42,456 nucleotides of DNA, taken from a virus. Under the pieces are notes generated by a model, which saw only the letters and a list, made by a program, of their open reading frames with translations, did not search any database and was not told the origin of the DNA. Position 1 is the stretch's first letter. Every line of letters starts with the position of its first letter. The stretch is taken from the IMG/VR virus record IMGVR_UViG_3300048672_001072, positions 1 through 42,456 of that record. One strand, written 5' to 3'. This document shows positions 14,083-27,450 of the stretch, one piece after another. The position numbers were made by a program, and so were the translations under genes.

Positions 14083-15486
14083 ATGTCAACATGGATTAAT
14101 ACAAAAGTTGTCATTGATATGGCAACAGGAGATATCCTAGAAAATGAAGGTTATCTCTATTCTGGCCCAGTAGCAGAAGCTGCCGGGGCAGATAAACAGG
14201 CTCTCGATGCCATCTTCAAGGAAGTCTTTGAAGACGGCGTGGCTGAGGGCGTAAACAATAAGAATCCCCTTCGTGATCTTATCAAGACCGAACGGGTGCC
14301 CTTCCGGGGGCGAGAAATCGTTAGGCTAGCACATACTGGCCGTAACGTTTCACCAATGTTCGTTGGTGAAGATTCAGCGTTTGCTGATGCTGGAAACCAG
14401 AGTTATTCACGTATGTTCGTGGATCAGCGGAAGCTGATGTCACGGCTTAGAATGACTTGGGAAGTCATGCAGGACTCAACCTCCAATGAGGGTGCTTTCA
14501 TTAGTGCTCGTAAGTCGGAGATGCAGTACCTAATTGATGACATGTCCCGTAGAGATGAGTACGCGCTCAACTCTGATGGTCGTGGAGTTCTAGCAGTTGG
14601 TAATAGTGGTACCTATAATACAACTACCCTTACCCTAAAGAATCCAGGCGGGATTACAAATGCTAATTTCGGCAATAGATTCCTTTCAGTAGGTATGTTC
14701 ATCGGTGCAGTAGATCCTAATACAGGAAATCTTCGTACCTCAATTCGTAAGGTAACAGCTGTTTCAAATGGTGGAACAACTGTAACTCTAGATGCATCAA
14801 CTCAGACAGGTTGGGCAGATGGCGATTTCATCGTTCAGGTTGCCAACTCATCTGTAACTGATATTCTAGATACCTCCTATGAACATGCATGGTGGGGTGT
14901 AATGGCCCTTGTTGATGATGGTACATATCGTGCGAGCTACTATGGCTTGGATCGTACACAGATTCCAGCCTACTCAAGTTATGTAACTGCTTCAACAGGT
15001 GCCTTATCAACTGATCTCATTCAGCGTGTATCAGATATCGTTGATCAGAAGTTGAACGGTAAGATTAGTAATATTCTTTGCCATCACTCAACACGTCGGC
15101 TGGTAATTCAGCTTACAGATGCTGATCGTCGTTATATGGGTGCTTCGCTCAATAAGCCAGATCCGGGGACGGCTGCTTTTAAGCAGGGTGATATTCCATT
15201 CGGTGAAATTCCCGTCCGCGCTCTAAGGGATTTCCCATTAGATGTCATGATGTTCCTTGACGTGGCTAATGCTGGTTTTAGAGAGTATGTCTCTGAGCCA
15301 GGCAAGTGGGTAGATGAAGATGGTAGCGTGCTATGGCGTGTTGGTACCGGCACATCCGGTCGAGATGCGTTTGAGGCATGGTATCGTATGCGTAAGCAGT
15401 ATTTCCTAGAGTATCCAGCATTCTGTGCTAGACTTGATGGAATCACTGGCCAGTCGTTAATCGTCCAGAGAGCAGCTGGTTCATAA
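14083..15486 (+). CDS. Major capsid protein
   Basis: A 467-residue protein in the position after portal and scaffold. Segments typical of phage capsid subunits include the extended N-terminal arm (IDMATGDILENEGYLYSGPV), KSEMQYLIDDMSRRDEYALN, a beta insertion around residues 170-250, and the C-terminal KQYFLEYPAFCARLDGITGQ. I infer an HK97-like fold from length and position; no signature motif exists. Ribosome-binding site AAGGAAT precedes ATG 14083. A good terminator follows it, as expected for the most abundant virion protein. Confidence 0.82.
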   Translation: MSTWINTKVVIDMATGDILENEGYLYSGPVAEAAGADKQALDAIFKEVFEDGVAEGVNNKNPLRDLIKTERVPFRGREIVRLAHTGRNVSPMFVGEDSAFADAGNQSYSRMFVDQRKLMSRLRMTWEVMQDSTSNEGAFISARKSEMQYLIDDMSRRDEYALNSDGRGVLAVGNSGTYNTTTLTLKNPGGITNANFGNRFLSVGMFIGAVDPNTGNLRTSIRKVTAVSNGGTTVTLDASTQTGWADGDFIVQVANSSVTDILDTSYEHAWWGVMALVDDGTYRASYYGLDRTQIPAYSSYVTASTGALSTDLIQRVSDIVDQKLNGKISNILCHHSTRRLVIQLTDADRRYMGASLNKPDPGTAAFKQGDIPFGEIPVRALRDFPLDVMMFLDVANAGFREYVSEPGKWVDEDGSVLWRVGTGTSGRDAFEAWYRMRKQYFLEYPAFCARLDGITGQSLIVQRAAGS

Positions 15487-18662: not shown

Positions 18663-19359
18663 AAAGTTCACAGGTTTGATTGTTGGTATTGCATTACTAA
18701 TAGGTAGTTTATTTGTAAGTAAAGTTACCTCTCAAACCGCAGAAGTTATGTATGGTTTAGCCAGTGGAGTTATTACTCCAGTAGCTGTGGACTCATCAGG
18801 AAATCTAAAGCTAAGTGCATTAGCCGGTGGAGGAACACAAACTTATAAACCAGCTGGTACATTATATTGGGAAAATCCAGCGGTTGCAACTTCTAGTGGA
18901 AGTACCGTTTGGGTGACAACTACTGCTTATTCATTACCAGCCGGTACATTATCTACTAATGGCGATAGATTATATGTTGAAGTAAACGTAACATTAGGAA
19001 CAGCTGCTGCTGAGAATAAAAATTTATCGTGCAACCTAGGCTATTCAGCATTTTCCACTACTACTGGAGCATTTACAGGCGGTTTGACTTTTATTAGTGA
19101 ATCTTCTGCTTCAAATTCAGGAACTCTTTCTTGGCACGCTAGAGGATGGATTACAAGACTTTCTGCTACATCTCAAAGTTCTCATTGGTGGACTAATTGG
19201 GAAGGAGCTACAACTACTCAATCTGCTGCTTACTCTAATGCGAGTACATTAACCTGGGCTAATGCGATGAATCTTCTTTGTGCAGTGGGCAATATAACTG
19301 CTTCGAATACGCAAATATTAACCTTGCAAGAAATGCGCGTTTCCTATCAGCCACGTTAG
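18646..19359 (+). CDS. Exported beta-rich protein of the tail region
   Basis: A 237-residue protein beginning at GTG 18646, with GGGAGG eight bases upstream. Residues 6-30 (KKFTGLIVGIALLIGSLFVS) form a signal peptide or membrane anchor. The rest is Thr/Ser/Trp-rich and beta-like (SSGSTVWVTTTAYSLPAGTL, then SHWWTNWEGATTTQSAAYSN). The mature part looks like a virion surface domain, but a signal peptide is unexpected on a virion protein. It may be an exported accessory or may anchor at the membrane. Family unknown. Confidence 0.62.
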   Translation: MLSSIKKFTGLIVGIALLIGSLFVSKVTSQTAEVMYGLASGVITPVAVDSSGNLKLSALAGGGTQTYKPAGTLYWENPAVATSSGSTVWVTTTAYSLPAGTLSTNGDRLYVEVNVTLGTAAAENKNLSCNLGYSAFSTTTGAFTGGLTFISESSASNSGTLSWHARGWITRLSATSQSSHWWTNWEGATTTQSAAYSNASTLTWANAMNLLCAVGNITASNTQILTLQEMRVSYQPR

Positions 19360-19428
19360 CTTATTATTTTATTGGTCAGTAGCTAAGTCTGAATAGTTTT
19401 AGTGTATTGTAAATAAGAAAGTTGTATA

Positions 19429-20136
19429 ATGGCAACAACCTTCACTGCTCTTCTAGTTGATATCAGAAGTCGTCTCATTGAACCAGTTCCAAAATTCTGG
19501 AGCGATGCTGAGTTAACTGAGATCGCCATTAAAGGTGCTAGAGACCTTTGGAGAGATGTTGTTGACTTGAAGCAGGAACACTATCTTACCATTGATACTA
19601 CTAATGTCTCATATGTGGCCGGAGCTACAACTCTAACAGGTATCCCAGCTGATGTCCATAAGATCTTAATGATCGAGCCTAGGGATTTGAGTGTGAACGG
19701 CTCAAATCATGGCCTCCTTTTTAAACCCTTGGAGTATCAAAATAATCAGTTTCAACTAGCTAGATCAAGAGATGCTATCGATCCAACCAATGATACTCTT
19801 TATTATGCAATCATGCAACAGGGAACACCAATTGGTCCTCCTACAATTGTTGTCGCCCCTAAGGTGACATCAACTGTTCTCATTGCTTTTAGTTATGTTC
19901 CCTCCCTTGGTGCTTTAACAGGCTCGTCTTACATTCCAATCCCCGGTGAAGCAGATGCTGCAGTTGTTGCTTATACAGTGGCATTTGCTAGGGCAAAGGA
20001 ACGTGAGGATAGAAGTCCTGACCCAGCTTGGTTAGCAATTTATGCTACTGAGAAGGCCCACCTTTTACAGTCATTAGGATTGAGAGAGTATCAGGACCCA
20101 AGTTATGTTGAGGCAATTTGGACTGAGTATTGGTAG
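19429..20136 (+). CDS. Head-tail adaptor (connector) protein
   Basis: A 235-residue protein. The N-terminal helices, LLVDIRSRLIEPVPKFWSDA and ELTEIAIKGARDLWRDVVDL, followed by a beta domain with PADVHKILMIEPRD and C-terminal helices (AVVAYTVAFARAKEREDRSP), match the neck adaptor proteins that sit under the portal in podovirus-like phages. It is the first recognisable neck protein before the tail genes, consistent with gene order. The assignment rests on this pattern and on context. Confidence 0.7.
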   Translation: MATTFTALLVDIRSRLIEPVPKFWSDAELTEIAIKGARDLWRDVVDLKQEHYLTIDTTNVSYVAGATTLTGIPADVHKILMIEPRDLSVNGSNHGLLFKPLEYQNNQFQLARSRDAIDPTNDTLYYAIMQQGTPIGPPTIVVAPKVTSTVLIAFSYVPSLGALTGSSYIPIPGEADAAVVAYTVAFARAKEREDRSPDPAWLAIYATEKAHLLQSLGLREYQDPSYVEAIWTEYW

Positions 20137-20140
20137 ATAG

Positions 20141-20298
20141 ATGGCTATTGTAACTTTACCTCCAGCGTCTGGCTCAGCGTCTAATTTTGTTGACGGTAAT
20201 GTTGTTTTTGGTATTCAAGGGACTGGCTATCCCATTCTCCAACAATCACTGAAGTGACTGTAAATCCTACGTTTGGCTCAATTAATGGGGGAGATTAA
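20141..20298 (+). pseudogene. Collapsed remnant of an IPT-cassette gene
   Basis: A frame from ATG 20141 encodes MAIVTLPPASGSASNFVDGN and ends at TGA 20255 after 38 residues. A second frame then reads FWYSRDWLSHSPTITEVTVN and PTFGSINGGD, stopping at TAA 20296. These two pieces match the start (PIVNLP) and the end (WYYN...ATVNPTFGSTSGGD then TAA) of the 21355-22113 gene, and even the stop context GAT-TAA-AT is the same. The middle, about 200 codons, is missing and the parts are out of frame. I read it as an internally deleted duplicate of that cassette. A short translated peptide is possible. Confidence 0.5.
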
Positions 20299-20303
20299 AT
20301 ATT

Positions 20304-21086
20304 ATGAATAAATTACTAACATCATTTCTAATTGTAAGTTTAATTCTAATACCATTTAAATCCTTCGCAGCTGATGACAAAGCATTAGTTGAAAAGGTGA
20401 ACAAAGCTGTGGCCCTCCTCTACTCCCAAGATGAGAGCGGTTCAATGAAGATGCTCTGCACCGCTACCATCTTTGAAAAGTCTTCAAAAGGATACTTATT
20501 TGTTTCAGCTGCCCATTGTGTAGGAAATGATGATGTTCAGAAAGAACATTCTGCTAAATCCGATCATCCATTTTATATCACCTTTGATGAGATAAAGACT
20601 GCTAAGAAGTTCTATCCTGCTTCCGTTCAATGGGGTGGATATCAACACAGAGGTGAAGATTTTTCAGTATATGAGGTAGTGACGGATGAAAATTGGCCAG
20701 TCATCCCAGTGGTGAGTGAGAAGGGTCTAAAGGATGGGGCGGAGATTTTAAATATTGCCTCCCCCCTCGGTCTTGGTAAGCAAGTCTTTCATGGAACTAT
20801 TTCAAGTCTCTACCTCGATAGGCCAGTAGTGGCGGGTGATATTAACTGGAAGGGGTCGGTTGTTCTTCAGCTTCCTGGAGTGAATGGTGGATCTAGTGGA
20901 TCAGCAATTATCTCTGAGGAAAATAAAAGCATTGTGGCCTTCCTTGTAGGGACAATTGGTGGCTCTACTATCATTGCCATTCCGGCTTCTAGATTTCTCG
21001 CTGTGAAGAAGGCCATTGAGGGTAAGAAGTATAAATGGTATGCTCCTGAGATTGAACTGACTCCAGAGGGTTCTGAGTCAAACTAA
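20304..21086 (+). CDS. Secreted trypsin-like serine protease
   Basis: A 260-residue protein with a signal peptide (MNKLLTSFLIVSLILIPFKS, cleavage after FAA). The catalytic triad is visible: H71 in SAAHC, D119 in GEDFSVYEV, S198 in NGGSSGSAI. It therefore belongs to the chymotrypsin/DegP-like S1 fold without a PDZ domain. Being exported, it should act in the periplasm or outside. It is inserted between the neck gene and the tail gene, beside a decayed cassette. A second such protease is encoded at 36533. Possible roles are cleavage of envelope proteins or of virion fibres. Confidence 0.86.
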   Translation: MNKLLTSFLIVSLILIPFKSFAADDKALVEKVNKAVALLYSQDESGSMKMLCTATIFEKSSKGYLFVSAAHCVGNDDVQKEHSAKSDHPFYITFDEIKTAKKFYPASVQWGGYQHRGEDFSVYEVVTDENWPVIPVVSEKGLKDGAEILNIASPLGLGKQVFHGTISSLYLDRPVVAGDINWKGSVVLQLPGVNGGSSGSAIISEENKSIVAFLVGTIGGSTIIAIPASRFLAVKKAIEGKKYKWYAPEIELTPEGSESN

Positions 21087-21355
21087 TGGCTACGCTAAAA
21101 ATTTATAGTTTGGGATCAATGGGAATCAATGTTGATTCTGATCCCATTTCAATCAAGGACCAGGAACTTAGATTAGCTCAGAATGCTATTAGAGAGCCCC
21201 TTGGCAATGATAGTGGATTGAGGAAGCGTCCTGGACTTGGGGTATTTAATTCTTCAGTCCTAGCTGGTTCAGTGCTTGGAGGGATTGGAGTTCCTCTTCA
21301 AGATCTAAGTATCAATAGTCATCAATTTATTTATATTGGTAGGGGACCATTTTAG
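21086..21355 (+). CDS. Tail protein N-terminal fragment
   Basis: An 89-residue protein: MATLKIYSLGSMGINVDSDP, then LRKRPGLGVFNSSVLAGSVL, ending FIYIGRGPF. The LRKRPGL and YIGRGP pieces are the usual beginning of a longer phage tail protein whose remainder starts like the TDTKGWWYSDEGFGGG part of the 22869-24485 product. The stop TAG comes exactly where the two would join (PF before the stop here, PF before TDTKGWW there). Between them lie about 2 kb of IPT/TIG domains. I therefore think the ancestral tail gene was split, and this part is now separately translated. Its TAG overlaps the next start (TAGTG). Confidence 0.62.
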   Translation: MATLKIYSLGSMGINVDSDPISIKDQELRLAQNAIREPLGNDSGLRKRPGLGVFNSSVLAGSVLGGIGVPLQDLSINSHQFIYIGRGPF

Positions 21356-22113
21356 TGCCTATAGTAAATCTACCATTAAATACTACTAATGCTGTTTCAT
21401 ACGCTTGGGATCTATCATCAAATCCTGCTACTAGTTTTTGGACAGGAGGATCATCACCTGTTGGATCATTTTTAACAATTAATGGTGACAGTAGCCCTGC
21501 ATTTGGAGGAGTTGTAGCCTTTTCTGCCGCAGTACCATCAACAATAGAGTTGCCAACAAATGCAATCATATCAAGCATTAAACTTAAATATAATTGGTCA
21601 GTAACAAACTCAGCTCCTAGTGGATTTGCTGGAGCAGAGGCATATATAACAGGTGCAGGACCAGATACTTCTTATCTTGTTGCAGAAGCCTCACCATCAA
21701 TAGGCCCTGATGGAAGTTTACCATCTCCTTATTCTGCTACAAATCAATCAATAACAGCAACTTATCCAAATGGAACTATAACTTCTATACTTACTCGGGC
21801 TAGTTTTATTAGTTATTACTGTCAGACTCCATATATAGGAAGCTTAATTTTTGTTCCTACTTGGTATGGTCCATTTGTATGGACACATAATCAAACAAGT
21901 GGATTTACTTCGAGCCCAGGAAATTTAAAGCAAATAAGTTTTTCCAATATTTCTATAGATGTTACATATACTTCAGGAGATTGGTATTATAACCCGGTTA
22001 CAAACCATTATCAATTTTCTACCGATCCTGGGCCACCTTGGCAACCTTTAGCCCCATTTATATCAGCAGCCACAGTTAACCCAACCTTCGGTTCCACATC
22101 AGGTGGCGATTAA
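21355..22113 (+). CDS. IPT-cassette tail protein, first part, ended by an in-frame TAA
   Basis: A 252-residue protein starting at GTG 21355 (PIVNLPLNTTNAVSYAWDLS). Residues 1-220 form a Ser/Thr-rich beta domain I do not recognise. The C-terminus, ISAATVNPTFGSTSGGD, is the beginning of an IPT/TIG domain. TAA at 22111 then interrupts it, and ATG at 22114 resumes in the same frame with the rest of that domain. Either two polypeptides form one split domain, or ribosomes read through, or this is a nonsense mutation. Virion tail or fibre location is likely. Confidence 0.6.
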   Translation: MPIVNLPLNTTNAVSYAWDLSSNPATSFWTGGSSPVGSFLTINGDSSPAFGGVVAFSAAVPSTIELPTNAIISSIKLKYNWSVTNSAPSGFAGAEAYITGAGPDTSYLVAEASPSIGPDGSLPSPYSATNQSITATYPNGTITSILTRASFISYYCQTPYIGSLIFVPTWYGPFVWTHNQTSGFTSSPGNLKQISFSNISIDVTYTSGDWYYNPVTNHYQFSTDPGPPWQPLAPFISAATVNPTFGSTSGGD

Positions 22114-22863
22114 ATGATCATCAAAGGAACTGGTTTTGGTCAAGGAGCCACGGTTAAATTTGGGGCTGCTTCTGCCTCCTCAGTTGTAGTTGTCGATGCC
22201 TTCACAATTACCTGCCTTACTCCTGCTCATGCTGTTGGGAGTGTAAATGTCACTGTTACCAATCCTGATGGTCAATCAGCAACCTTAACTAATGGTTATA
22301 GATATTCAACTACCTGGGTAGAACCTCCTTCTCAAGAAGAAGAATTACCAACTTCTCCAGGAAGTGAGTGGAGTCTTACTGATCCACTGCCACCAACTCC
22401 TACTTCAGTAGCCCCAAATAGTGGCTCAAGTGTTGGTGGAGAGCCAATTGTAATTATTGGTACAAGCTTCGTTCAAGGTGCAACAGCTACTATTGGTGGG
22501 AATGCTCTCATTAATCCAGTAGTAGTTAATTCTAAAGGAATCTATGGTTTAACTCCTGCACATGCTATTGGTACTGTAGATGTAGTAATTACAAATCCTG
22601 ATTCTCAAACTGGAACGCTAACTAATGCTTATACCTACACTAATCCATTAGCAATTGTGACTAGTATTACTCCAATCATTGGCCCAACGGTTGGGGGAAC
22701 TACCTTAACAATTCAGGGAACAGGATTTATTGATCCAGTTATTGTAACTGTAGGTGGTCTGACAGCTACCTCTCCAACAGTAGTTAATTCTCAAACTGTC
22801 ACAGCAGTCACCCCCGCTCATGCCAAGGGTCCTGCTGAAGTAACCGTAGTAAATACAGCTTAA
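22114..22863 (+). CDS. IPT/TIG-repeat tail protein, middle part
   Basis: A 249-residue protein with about two and a half IPT/TIG immunoglobulin-like repeats. Each repeat has a SxxxGGxxVxIxGTGF start, a GATVxxGG turn and an LTPAHAxGxVxVxVTNPD end. The first is already half done, starting MIIKGTGFGQGATVKFG, because its first strand is encoded before the TAA at 22111. The third ends early at VTVVNTA, where a stop removes the expected final strand. No ribosome-binding site precedes ATG 22114. The domains probably decorate the virion and bind surface sugars, as in many phages. Confidence 0.62.
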   Translation: MIIKGTGFGQGATVKFGAASASSVVVVDAFTITCLTPAHAVGSVNVTVTNPDGQSATLTNGYRYSTTWVEPPSQEEELPTSPGSEWSLTDPLPPTPTSVAPNSGSSVGGEPIVIIGTSFVQGATATIGGNALINPVVVNSKGIYGLTPAHAIGTVDVVITNPDSQTGTLTNAYTYTNPLAIVTSITPIIGPTVGGTTLTIQGTGFIDPVIVTVGGLTATSPTVVNSQTVTAVTPAHAKGPAEVTVVNTA

Positions 22864-22868
22864 CATAA

Positions 22869-24485
22869 ATGCCTATATTTACATATGATCCTCCGGTAAC
22901 TGTTTTAGCAATTATCTCATCAACTGGTGCTACTACTGGTGGAATTCCTGTTACAATTATTGGCAGTGAGTTTGATTTTGGCGCCACGGTTACTATTGGA
23001 GGTAACCCTGCCACTTCTGTAGTAGTGGTTGATATTAATCATATCACCGCAGTTACTCCCGCTCATGCTGCTGGAGTGGTGGATGTTGTTGTTACTAATC
23101 CTGACACTACAACTGGAACACTGACAAATGGTTATACATATGCTGTAGTTGCTCCAACAGTTACTGCTATTGACTTAAATTATGGTGCAGCAGCTGGTGG
23201 AGAATCAGTCCTCATTACAGGAACTGGATTTGTAGCTACACCAACAGTTCTATTTGGTGGAACAGGAGCAACCTCAGTAGTATTTGTTGATTCCAACCAT
23301 CTCACATGTGTAACTCCTGCACATGCTCAAGCAGTGGTTGATATCACAGTTACTAATCCAGACACCCAAATTGGTGTCCTTTTCAATGGATTCACCTATA
23401 CTACAGCTTCTCCTTTTACCGATACAAAGGGTTGGTGGTATTCTGATGAAGGTTTTGGTGGAGGAACCCAATTAGCACTATCACCTAATGTGCCTAAGCA
23501 TCCTCGTCATTGGACTCAGATTGCAGGTTTCGCAACAGGTAATGCTGCTATGTTTGGTGGCTTTCCAGCCTCATCAGTAGTATTTAGGAACCATATAATC
23601 TATGCAGGAGATGACTATACCCTAGGAACTGACCAACCAACTATTCGTATTTTCGATGGTCTAGCTGATAGATTAATGGCTAGAATTCCAAACACGGCAG
23701 CGGCGGCAATCCCTAAAGCAATTATGTCGATGCTTTTAATTGATGGGATCATCTATCTAACAACATATGATTCAGGTACAACTTCAGCTGATTATGCTGG
23801 AAGGGTGTTTGCATTTGATCCACTCTCAACTACCCTAACACAACTAGGTTCAGGATTTAGTGGGGGTGAACTTCCCTATGCCCTGGCTTGGCATATGAAT
23901 CGTCTTTGGTTAGGAACAAATAAAGGTGATGGTTCAGCAGCTAAAATTTACTACTTCCGACCAAATATTGATACAGTCTGGACCCAAGATTACACCCTAG
24001 CTACATCAACTGTAGGTGGTGCTTGCTCCCTTTGCTCCTACAAGGGCAGACTATTTGTAGGTACAGACAATGCAGCAGGCTCATTTTCAAAAATACTTGT
24101 TAGAAGTGCTGCTGGAGCCTACTCCACAAGTGATACAGGTGCAGGGGGAACTGCCCGAGTTAATAATGCTTTTCTACATATGATTGTGTTTGGTGACAAT
24201 CTTTATGCAACATATTATAATCCAGACACCACAGCAGTAGCATATATTCGTAAATTTGATAACACCTCATGGTCTACAGTATACACCGGATCTGCCCTTA
24301 CATTAAGACCTTACATCATTCAATTTCAAGGCAAAGATTCTCTCTATGTAGTTGGTGGTGGCGATTCCCTTAGGGCTTCCTTGATTAGATCAACAAATGG
24401 AACTACTTGGGTAAATCTAACAGCCTATCTCTCTGGCCCAATTACTGAAACAGCCCTTCCTGCATTTGGTGTAGTGAGTTTATAA
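22869..24485 (+). CDS. Tail protein: two IPT/TIG domains plus tail body
   Basis: A 538-residue protein. Residues 1-12 are MPIFTYDPPVTV, continuing the end of the preceding repeat in a shifted frame. Two full IPT/TIG repeats follow (to about residue 175), then from PFTDTKGWWYSDEGFGGG a different tail domain of repeated beta blades (SLCSYKGRLFVGTDNAAGSF, then FGDNLYATYYNPDTTAVAYI), like a propeller. This last part probably belonged with the N-terminal fragment at 21086. It ends at TAATG, overlapping the next tail gene, so translation is probably coupled. Confidence 0.68.
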   Translation: MPIFTYDPPVTVLAIISSTGATTGGIPVTIIGSEFDFGATVTIGGNPATSVVVVDINHITAVTPAHAAGVVDVVVTNPDTTTGTLTNGYTYAVVAPTVTAIDLNYGAAAGGESVLITGTGFVATPTVLFGGTGATSVVFVDSNHLTCVTPAHAQAVVDITVTNPDTQIGVLFNGFTYTTASPFTDTKGWWYSDEGFGGGTQLALSPNVPKHPRHWTQIAGFATGNAAMFGGFPASSVVFRNHIIYAGDDYTLGTDQPTIRIFDGLADRLMARIPNTAAAAIPKAIMSMLLIDGIIYLTTYDSGTTSADYAGRVFAFDPLSTTLTQLGSGFSGGELPYALAWHMNRLWLGTNKGDGSAAKIYYFRPNIDTVWTQDYTLATSTVGGACSLCSYKGRLFVGTDNAAGSFSKILVRSAAGAYSTSDTGAGGTARVNNAFLHMIVFGDNLYATYYNPDTTAVAYIRKFDNTSWSTVYTGSALTLRPYIIQFQGKDSLYVVGGGDSLRASLIRSTNGTTWVNLTAYLSGPITETALPAFGVVSL

Positions 24486-26059
24486 TGTCTTTAGCAGTCG
24501 TTCAAGCTGGAACTAACTTACAACTAATTAATGAAAGTGGTGTTGTTTCTGCCCCTCTCACATTACCTACTGGTATAACTCTTAGATCAGATATCCCACC
24601 CAGATTTGTGGTATTTGGCCGTTATGTTGTTTTGGTTAATACTCCTAGCCAACCCCTTACTATTGATGCAACTGGAGTTGTAAGACTTCTCTGCCCAGCA
24701 CCACCAAGATTAGCACCAATTCTAGGTACAGCAGCTGGAGGTACTTTAACAGGAACTTATAATGGGGTTAGATACACGTTTATTACCACTGATTCTTTTG
24801 GTAATCTCATTACTGAGAGCGACTTTAGTCCTCCTTCAGGATCTCAGTTAGTTATTAATCAATTTCTTACTGTTTCAGGAATTGATGTCAGCCCTGACCA
24901 AATCAGTGCTCGGAGGATGTATCGACCAACCACTCTTGGTGCAGTTAATTTCCAGTGGTTTGATCTTGATGGAAATGTTTTAACCTCAGCCCAAGATGAT
25001 CTAGCTGACGCAGGATTATCATTAGTAGCTGCTCCCATTCTAGGAACTCCTCCTAATTTAACACTCATTGCCGAGTTTCGAGACCGCCTTTGGGGTGTTG
25101 ATAGAATTGATATCGACGATTTAAGACATACTGAAGTAGGTCTCATGTATGCTTGGCCTGCCGATAATGTCTTCCCAATTCCATCAGTTGGATCAGATGA
25201 TGTGGGTGTCAGAGCCCTCATGCCACGTAGAGAGTCATTAGGTATTGGTAGGCAGAATCAACTCCTAGCAATTACTGGAAGTGATGATACTAATTTTCAG
25301 GTAGTTAAACTTAGTCAGAACTGTGGTGTAACTTCTCAGGAGTCGGTAGCAGTTTACAGAGATACAGCCTACTTCCTTTGGGAAGATGGTGTTTATACTT
25401 GGAATGATGAGGGTATAAATTGTATTTCAGATGGTAAGGTAAGAAGTTGGTTTAATACTGATGATACCTTTAATAGATCAATGTTTGGTCATGCTTTTGG
25501 ACATGTTGACCCAATCAGATTAAAATATCGATTATTTCTCTATACTACTGGTTCAACTACAAATATCAATTGGATCGAATACGATTTAGCTGAAAAAACA
25601 TGGTGGGGTCCTCATGCTACAGGAGCCTTCACCCCTTCTTCAGTGTTTAATCTTTTAGATAGTAATTTAGTTCCAAGACCAACCATTGGCGGAACTGATA
25701 GTAATACTTATAGAGAGCAGGATACCAGAACTGATGGAGCCAGCACACCAATTGTTCTAGAAATTAGAACGAAACGTTATGACATGGAAGAACCAGATCT
25801 AGATAAATACTGGGGCGAGTTTTCAATTATTGGTAAAGCTCAATCAGCCGGATTTACTCAGATTGACTTAGACATTGGCGAATTAAATGCTGAAACTGAA
25901 ACCGATCCAGTTTGGGATATGACTAATAGCAGGCAGCGTATTCAAAGGGTTGGAACTGGTAAACACGTTGAATTTGAGTTTAAAAATGATGAGGTTGGGC
26001 AGGATGTTCAACTCTACGGTTTTGAAGTTGATCCTGTTAATATTCTAGGTCGCAGGTAA
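24485..26059 (+). CDS. Tail structural protein
   Basis: A 524-residue protein with a beta-rich N-terminal half (LTLPTGITLRSDIPPRFVVF, then GRYVVLVNTPSQPLTIDATG) and a mid part FRDRLWGVDRIDIDDLRHTE, ending EFKNDEVGQDVQLYGFEVDP. Length, position and the blade-like segments (SVAVYRDTAYFLWEDGVYTW) fit a podovirus tail hub or nozzle protein. This is inference from position and general similarity; no enzymatic motif is seen. It overlaps both neighbours by one to four bases. Confidence 0.68.
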   Translation: MSLAVVQAGTNLQLINESGVVSAPLTLPTGITLRSDIPPRFVVFGRYVVLVNTPSQPLTIDATGVVRLLCPAPPRLAPILGTAAGGTLTGTYNGVRYTFITTDSFGNLITESDFSPPSGSQLVINQFLTVSGIDVSPDQISARRMYRPTTLGAVNFQWFDLDGNVLTSAQDDLADAGLSLVAAPILGTPPNLTLIAEFRDRLWGVDRIDIDDLRHTEVGLMYAWPADNVFPIPSVGSDDVGVRALMPRRESLGIGRQNQLLAITGSDDTNFQVVKLSQNCGVTSQESVAVYRDTAYFLWEDGVYTWNDEGINCISDGKVRSWFNTDDTFNRSMFGHAFGHVDPIRLKYRLFLYTTGSTTNINWIEYDLAEKTWWGPHATGAFTPSSVFNLLDSNLVPRPTIGGTDSNTYREQDTRTDGASTPIVLEIRTKRYDMEEPDLDKYWGEFSIIGKAQSAGFTQIDLDIGELNAETETDPVWDMTNSRQRIQRVGTGKHVEFEFKNDEVGQDVQLYGFEVDPVNILGRR

Positions 26060-27282
26060 TGGCACCATTCTTTCAGAAGTATCGTCTAAAGTGGCCTTGG
26101 ACTCCAAGCCAAGTTTATAATGTCGATGCGATGTTCTCAGAGATTTATTCGGCGTTTATATCTCTGTTAACTCAAGTTAATGATTTACAGACTAAAGTAG
26201 ATACCTTCTTAGGAACACCTGGAGGATCAGCCTCAACATCCATTATTATTATGGGTGGAGAAGATGGAGAGGATGGAGTAATTGGTCCTCAAGGTAATAC
26301 TGGCGCAACTGGTCCTCAAGGGCTGCAAGGATTAATGGGTCCTATTGGATTTCCAGGTTTTGACGGAGAAGATGGTCTTGATGGATTACCGGGTATGGCA
26401 GGAGCTGCTGGTGCGGCTGGTGCGGCTGGGGCAATTGGCCCTACTGGTCCTCAAGGAATTCCGGGCATCGGTTTTGATGGTGATGATGGAGAGGATGGTT
26501 TGCCTGGTGTGGCTGGAGCTGCTGGTGCAACTGGTGCTACAGGGGCGACGGGAAGTACCGGGCCTGCAGGCCCGCCCGGAATGGATGGAGAAGATGGAGA
26601 CATGGGACTAATAGGACCGGCAGGGCCAGCCGGTGCGGGAGCGGCACCTAAGCTCTATACGTTTGTCACGTCCGTCTCTGCGGCGTCGGTCGATAACTCA
26701 AGCGTCACCACTGCCGGCATTGATACCACGGGGGCTGATATCCTGTTCTTGGTACTGGCCGACAATTTAGGAAAAACGATCTGTACAATTACTGACAGTA
26801 AAAGCAATTCGTGGTCAGTCGCCAAAGAGGAAGATGGGGTGTCGGCCGGACTGTCTCGTTGCACGATTTTCTACTGCATTCCTACCTCTGTCGGGGCTGC
26901 ACATACCTTCACGGCGACTGGCGTTGCGTTCTCAGTACCTGGTATCTCTGTCTTGGCGTTCTACAATGCAAAACAAACATCTCCGCTGGATGCCGTGAAT
27001 GGCGGCGAGGCCGCTGGTGTCACCACGCAAGCCACTGGAAGCGTCACGCCAGCTGCAAATAATGAAATTGTGATCGCTGGAATCTGTGATGACAACTCAA
27101 ACATTTCCAGCATTGATTCCGGGTTCAGCACTCCGGTCACGAGTGGATTTACCGCCGCAGTCGCCTTTGCCTCGGGCATTGCGTATAAAATCCAGACCAC
27201 CGCTGTTGCTGTTAATCCCACATGGACCGTTGGAGTCGCTTCTGACCTCGCAGCAGCTATTGCGACATTCAAAGTGGTGTAA
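26059..27282 (+). CDS. Collagen-like tail fibre with foreign C-terminal domain
   Basis: A 407-residue protein. Residues 1-50 form an anchoring segment with a coiled coil (LLTQVNDLQTKVDTFLGTPG). Residues 66-196 are Gly-X-Y triplets with many Glu-Asp (GEDGEDGVIGPQG, GFDGEDGLDGLPG), a trimeric collagen-like shaft. Residues 200-407 are a globular beta domain, probably the receptor-binding head (FVTSVSAASVDNSSVTTAGI). From about 26570 the DNA becomes visibly richer in G and C than the rest of the gene and stays so to the end, which suggests that the head domain was swapped in from another genome. Confidence 0.8.
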   Translation: MAPFFQKYRLKWPWTPSQVYNVDAMFSEIYSAFISLLTQVNDLQTKVDTFLGTPGGSASTSIIIMGGEDGEDGVIGPQGNTGATGPQGLQGLMGPIGFPGFDGEDGLDGLPGMAGAAGAAGAAGAIGPTGPQGIPGIGFDGDDGEDGLPGVAGAAGATGATGATGSTGPAGPPGMDGEDGDMGLIGPAGPAGAGAAPKLYTFVTSVSAASVDNSSVTTAGIDTTGADILFLVLADNLGKTICTITDSKSNSWSVAKEEDGVSAGLSRCTIFYCIPTSVGAAHTFTATGVAFSVPGISVLAFYNAKQTSPLDAVNGGEAAGVTTQATGSVTPAANNEIVIAGICDDNSNISSIDSGFSTPVTSGFTAAVAFASGIAYKIQTTAVAVNPTWTVGVASDLAAAIATFKVV

Positions 27283-27297
27283 GGACACACAAAGCTC

Positions 27298-27450
27298 ATG
27301 GATTGGTCGTTGAAGCAGAAACATAGTACAATGTCAAGTGCAAGGATTATGCCATGCCATTTTTGGTGTAGGATCTTCGGGGCCAAGCAATCACAAGCCG
27401 AAGCCGAAGCAGCTGTTAAACTACCTCTGCTTACTATTCATGACATATAA
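27298..27450 (+). CDS. 50-residue hypothetical protein
   Basis: The frame MDWSLKQKHSTMSSARIMPC continues HFWCRIFGAKQSQAEAEAAV and ends KLPLLTIHDI. AAGGA lies 12 bases before the ATG. It sits right after the fibre gene, partly in the GC-rich stretch, so it may have arrived with the fibre head, for example as a chaperone; that is speculation. It could also be chance. Apart from this frame the gap 27283-27469 shows nothing. Confidence 0.38.
   Translation: MDWSLKQKHSTMSSARIMPCHFWCRIFGAKQSQAEAEAAVKLPLLTIHDI

Follow-up and report, generated by a model that had tools for sequence, protein, structure and literature searches.

The window analysed here, a viral record 42,456 bases long, carries genes for the head and the tail of a tailed phage. 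It includes a chain of co-oriented ORFs that runs from 19429-20136 through the remnant of a gene called X', a Trypsin_2 peptidase gene and the ORFs N, X, I and C to 24485-26059 (Table 1). Overlaps of 1 nt between neighbouring genes are common in this phage. No tRNA genes were found in the window, and promoter and terminator scans gave signals at chance level only.

Table 1. Features of the X-I region and its surroundings (positions in the window).
Feature	Position	Strand	Description
X' remnant (second X-type gene)	20142..20298	+	start MAIVTLP..., out-of-frame internal deletion, end TITEVTVNPTFGSINGGD-TAA
Trypsin_2 peptidase gene	20304..21086	+	follows an X'-type ending, in the window and in L002
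ORF N	21086..21355	+	89 aa; N-terminal part of a conserved phage protein, here free-standing; TAG overlaps X start by 1 nt
ORF X	21355..22113	+	252 aa, GTG start; variable beta-rich insert (low-confidence model), ends in IPT strand A
Conserved tail of X, last 18 codons (FISAATVNPTFGSTSGGD)	22057..22110	+	strand A (and A') of the split IPT domain
SD-like site CAGGTGGC	22100..22107 (approximate)	+	inside X, upstream of ATG 22114; -5.9 kcal/mol
X TAA, then in-frame I ATG, no gap	22111..22116	+	read directly from the sequence
ORF I	22114..22863	+	249 aa; IPT 1 without strand A, IPT 2, IPT 3 without last strand
ORF C	22869..24485	+	538 aa; two IPT domains followed by a C-terminal part, in most relatives fused to N
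ORF C start	22869	+	ATG right after in-frame TAA; no SD

The X-I junction

The stretch 22090-22140 reads ...GGT GGC GAT TAA ATG ATC ATC AAA GGA ACT GGT TTT.... The TAA (22111-22113) and the ATG (22114-22116) share one frame and the stop-to-start distance is 0. The initial annotation had reported an in-frame TAA inside an IPT/TIG domain with ATG as the next codon, and the sequence and the ORF coordinates agree with this. X and I form separate ORFs, and each has a start codon of its own. The start ATGs of I and C each lie directly behind an in-frame TAA. X is without any ATG, and both I and codons 1-227 of C have ATG as codon 1 only; in the other 38 ORFs counted, it makes up 141 of 8628 internal codons (1.6%). 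That so rare a codon stands directly behind a break twice suggests that accidental breaks are unlikely.

Profile searches with Pfam TIG (PF01833, cut-off 20.9 bits) gave 98.5 bits for I alone, 81.7 bits for C and 96.8 bits for the read-through chain of X and I, while X alone had no match. There are three IPT stretches in I and two in C. In the joined chain, with the TAA entered as X, the best TIG stretch covers residues 240-312 and spans the stop. A test HMM was then built solely from the four other IPT domains of the phage. With it, the tail of X, one residue and I together scored 94.8 bits and I alone 83.2 bits; replacing the stop by no residue or by two residues gave 89.2 and 90.4 bits. Controls with the same HMM reached at most 94.6 bits for 1000 shuffled tails and at most 90.6 bits for 41 C-termini from other ORFs of this phage. 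The margin over the best shuffle is narrow because the tail of X is short, contributing just ~12 bits to the joined-domain score. The domain is split in exact register, above chance. The stop occupies one variable position in an otherwise complete IPT domain, and all four other IPT domains of the phage have a sense codon there. Moreover, the DNA of 22090-22138 is 71% like that of 23184-23232 in a later IPT domain. Since this alignment runs across the stop, the coding sequence was probably once continuous.

An AlphaFold2 model of the joined domain was computed as a single chain, with the TAA entered as Q and an alignment consisting of the four other IPT domains. It has an IPT fold with a mean pLDDT of 91.0. 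Strands 5-10 and 13-15 come from X and the remainder from I, and the stop falls on residue 21, where the next strand begins. The best PDB matches of this model in Foldseek are EBF and plexin IPT/TIG domains, and several of its best viral matches are phage IPT proteins. HMM register and strand map bear out the earlier proposal that X and I together make one IPT domain cut after its first strand. We conclude that this is a split IPT domain in which X supplies strand A and I supplies the remaining strands. By strand map, HMM fit and the single-chain model, the acceptor I lacks the edge strand that the C-terminus of X carries. Tailed-phage IPT/TIG proteins such as BFVD A0A6J5L8Z0 have the same fold, with the difference that there the domain is matched within one chain. 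For X alone the predicted structure (pLDDT 43) is beta-rich only, and no function was drawn from it.

A second break inside an IPT domain is found at the boundary between I and C. At 22861-22871, the third IPT domain of I lacks its last strand and C starts with MPIFTYDPP right after an in-frame TAA. Joined to the first 15 residues of C, the third IPT domain of I scored at best 55.2 bits, with six filler residues, which is little gain; shuffled C heads with five filler residues gave 54.9 bits at the 95% level and 56.2 bits at most. Judged by these scores, C offers no convincing partner strand for the third IPT domain of I. The in-frame TAA at 22866-22868 rules out fusion of I to C by a -1 frameshift.

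The ending of X in related sequences

A scan with the capsid protein gave 42 relatives. In these, several of them short or cut, an HMM from the IPT domains of the window found no match. Scans of viral contigs with I, with g24485 and with the C-terminal part of C found no close relative of the X-I pair. Further scans of viral contigs, one with X and the X' of L002 and one with the trypsin gene, had L002 as their sole match, and a search of viral contigs for a split-IPT pattern with adjacent TAR-ATG had none. Scans of genome contigs with A1 and the capsid protein found no relative. Neither tblastn of N, C, X and I nor a search with the DNA of 19000-27300 matched anything among phages. The pair itself therefore rests on one genome. 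Among the papers returned by literature searches, none deals with a phage in which an IPT or Ig-like domain is split, judged by titles and abstract openings.

The ending of X has counterparts. In the longer aligned blocks, which reach up to 20106, L002 and the window share 95-98% identity; in the trypsin gene the figure is 89%. The L002 contig ends inside that gene, so that the X region lies outside the contig. Upstream of the trypsin gene, L002 carries an intact X' ORF of 238 aa (14320-15036) whose end, TITEVTINPTFGSTAGGD-TAA, matches the end of X. The gene end NPTFGSxxGGD-stop is thus shared by X, the window remnant (20298) and the X' of L002 (15036), and in both X' sequences the stop after this peptide is TAA. 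After both X' stops comes the peptidase gene, with no IPT domain and nothing in frame. The slot itself is hypervariable: a decayed remnant in the window (20142-20298) stands opposite an intact X' in L002 (14320-15036), with only start and end in common, and the X' versions are strongly diverged between two phages that are otherwise 95-98% identical.

Over the last 18 codons, where sites are few and values rough, pS is 0.85 between X and L002, 1.06 between X and the remnant and 0.63 between L002 and the remnant; the corresponding pN values are 0.19, 0.22 and 0.10. Amino acids and stop are kept at these endings though synonymous sites are near saturation. A search of viral contigs for the pattern NPTFGS..GG returned 9 stretches, and on inspection this ending occurs in the L002 contig only. 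The comparison of the three endings firmly indicates that NPTFGSxxGGD-TAA is an old gene end conserved at the protein level. The tail from L002 also completes the open domain of I, with 96.1 bits vs 94.8 bits for X's own tail.

These endings bear on the proposals, made in the initial annotation, that the stop is a fresh nonsense mutation or a sequencing error. A fresh mutation is at odds with a stop that is common to three sequences with near-saturated synonymous divergence. A sequencing or assembly error at 22111-22113 would need to affect just one codon, the only one that separates the two halves, and we give it almost no weight. The same stop follows the same peptide in two other sequences, one of them from another assembly, and the ORFs that could be judged against L002 are open in both assemblies. 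In that comparison of 20 ORFs, 18 aligned from the first base, with small gaps in some alignments, and had no internal stop in L002; the two not aligned from the first base were not judged. The X-I junction looks like an old, functional gene boundary and not like a fresh mutation or a sequencing error.

Read-through was a further proposal, thought to produce variable fibre lengths. Regulated read-through of the TAA or other recoding would give a minor X-I fusion product, and the frame does continue exactly, short of a single residue. Frameshifting is reported to add Ig-like extensions in phages T3 and A2 (PMC5009743). The domains described there and the X-I region have in common an Ig-like module, a phage structural protein, a recoding-like site and spread by recombination; unlike them, X-I has no frame change and no RNA structure signal, and its ending recurs without the downstream module. 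TAA ends 35 of the 41 ORFs examined (TAG 5, TGA 1) and is therefore not reassigned, which speaks against general recoding. RNA folding downstream of the stop, where read-through may but need not have a stimulatory structure, is ordinary (z -0.33 and -0.66), and there is no open frame after the stop in the homologous endings at L002 15036 and window 20298, which together make read-through unlikely. Nor would it need an ATG directly behind the stop. We consider this explanation highly improbable.

The surroundings of X were compared in the relatives as well. Most of them encode N and C within a single protein. N was followed in 21 loci, 19 by tblastn and two (L027 and L041) added by ORF position. 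Counts of N arrangements are not independent, as L033/L034 and L035/L036/L037 are apparent near-duplicates. N occurs only in a long ORF of 305-798 aa in 11 loci, three of which (L004, L021, L029) run off the locus; four have a short N plus a long N-containing ORF (L014, L035, L036, L037); in five, N is found only as a free-standing ORF of 92-104 aa (L003, L033, L034, L038, L043); and L024 is cut too early to be classed. A free-standing N ORF is hence present in 9 of the 21. Short N ORFs (76-104 aa) stand before different inserts in L003, L014, L033, L034, L035-L037, L038 and L043. Four of these short-N loci also carry a second, full-length N-C gene, and the site is an insertion site for other genes. 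In L003, N ends where the N of the window ends (GRGP..stop); a 1-nt overlap and an SD-like site mark this break, and in the ORF that follows, of 1224 aa, another insert is fused to C. In L004 (18903-21296), N, C and a g24485-like gene, which are separate genes elsewhere, form one open 798-aa ORF running off the locus. Because different inserts lie behind N across phages, the site is variable and the X-I-IPT insert is the version of the window. These gene arrangements place X among several inserts that occupy a variable site in the tail genes.

Recent decay offers another account of the breaks. An intact long IPT gene would have been hit by a nonsense mutation and frameshifts, leaving ORFs that are pseudogene fragments. 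There are indeed three successive breaks (N-X, X-I and I-C) where many relatives have one ORF, and the neighbouring X' copy of the window is decayed. We nevertheless find decay very unlikely for the X-I region, where the stop is common to old paralogous endings and start codons lie directly at the breaks despite the rarity of ATG. The free-standing N ORFs of the relatives and the SD-like site at the same break in L003 also argue against it.

Coupled translation and strand docking

The initial annotation had found no ribosome-binding site at the second start. This does not hold, as CAGGTGGC precedes the ATG. Its AGGTGG lies 7 nt upstream of ATG 22114, within the last codons of X, and its pairing with the anti-SD ranks 15th among 43 scored starts. 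As a background, 10% of 600 random positions reach -5.8 kcal/mol. The sequence is therefore suggestive of an RBS-like site of moderate strength before I. SD-like sites at other starts have -6.4 (the GTG of X), -6.1 (N) and -8.4 kcal/mol (trypsin gene). C has none (0) and, without an SD of its own, would depend on coupling.

Coupling by termination and reinitiation is reported to fall steeply with distance and to be strongest for gaps as short as this one; coupled pairs are enriched for subunits of one complex, and SD sites help coupling often, not always (PMC10666635, PMC6728339). Like the pairs described in these reports, X and I have a stop and a start that abut and an SD-like site in the upstream ORF, and their products are likely to act together; unlike known pairs, their boundary lies within one protein domain. 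Coupled translation of X and I is likely from these sequence features. A restart, which the initial annotation had also listed, fits the ATG behind the stop, the SD-like site in the end of X and the many stop/start overlaps in this genome. Ribosomes finishing X at the TAA would restart at the adjacent ATG, aided by the SD-like AGGTGG, and the amounts of X and I would thereby be coupled. An SD site within an upstream ORF is reported to restrict the C-terminus of that ORF (PMC10666635, PMC6728339). The conservation of GGD may in part reflect such a constraint on the DNA. The constraint gives no reason for the conservation of NPTFGS, because the NPTFGS codons differ.

We favour, as the probable explanation, that X and I are separate, coupled genes derived from a once-continuous IPT domain, and that the strand of X docks into I. 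The C-terminal strand of X would join the open IPT domain of I in trans, similar to donor-strand complementation. We are less sure of the docking step, which is predicted because the strand is conserved where no IPT domain follows, because a foreign tail fits I, and from the strand map. The IPT stalk I would then carry X, a variable beta-rich head, by non-covalent attachment, and X-type heads could be exchanged as units. Several points weigh against this explanation. X' has decayed in the window, so such parts can be lost; the SD site is moderate; X starts with GTG; and the tail has just 18 codons. A more specific form, a system of tail head exchange in which the heads X and X' plug a C-terminal IPT strand into the stalk and the codons of the strand carry the next RBS, is possible, and we put it forward tentatively.

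Coupling without docking is an unlikely alternative. The split IPT domain would be a relic of gene fission or of recombination of IPT modules, and the strand of X would have no partner. The site is prone to recombination, N and C being one ORF in most relatives with other inserts in several; X' is decayed in the window; and a second IPT domain is cut at the I-C boundary. A tail without use, however, would be expected to lose its amino acid sequence by the time synonymous divergence nears saturation, and the tail of L002 still fits the IPT profile.

Docking of the X strand into I would have precedents of a kind. Donor-strand complementation is known from pili. TasA is a further reported case. 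By the model, X-I resembles these systems in that an Ig-like fold without an edge strand has a neighbour whose terminus carries such a strand. It differs from pili and TasA in that the upstream gene product carries the strand, an A strand, at its C-terminus and the interaction is a predicted one. By analogy, the known kinds of arrangement behind X-I would be coupled genes and strand complementation of Ig-like folds. Should docking in trans occur, X-I would be an Ig-like domain whose two parts come from separate coupled genes, and the phage would have a simple way to swap receptor-facing heads on a constant stalk; heads would be swapped as whole genes with no need for fusion. Even if X and I are a plain coupled pair, they caution against taking an in-domain stop in a metagenomic phage for an error on that ground alone.

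Two neighbouring genes were also noted. The Trypsin_2 gene (20304-21086 in the window, 15036-15446 in L002) has, by eye, a signal-peptide-like start and lies inside the structural gene cluster. Downstream of the chain, 26059-27282 holds a collagen-repeat, tail-fibre-like gene (Pfam Collagen, 75.3 bits).
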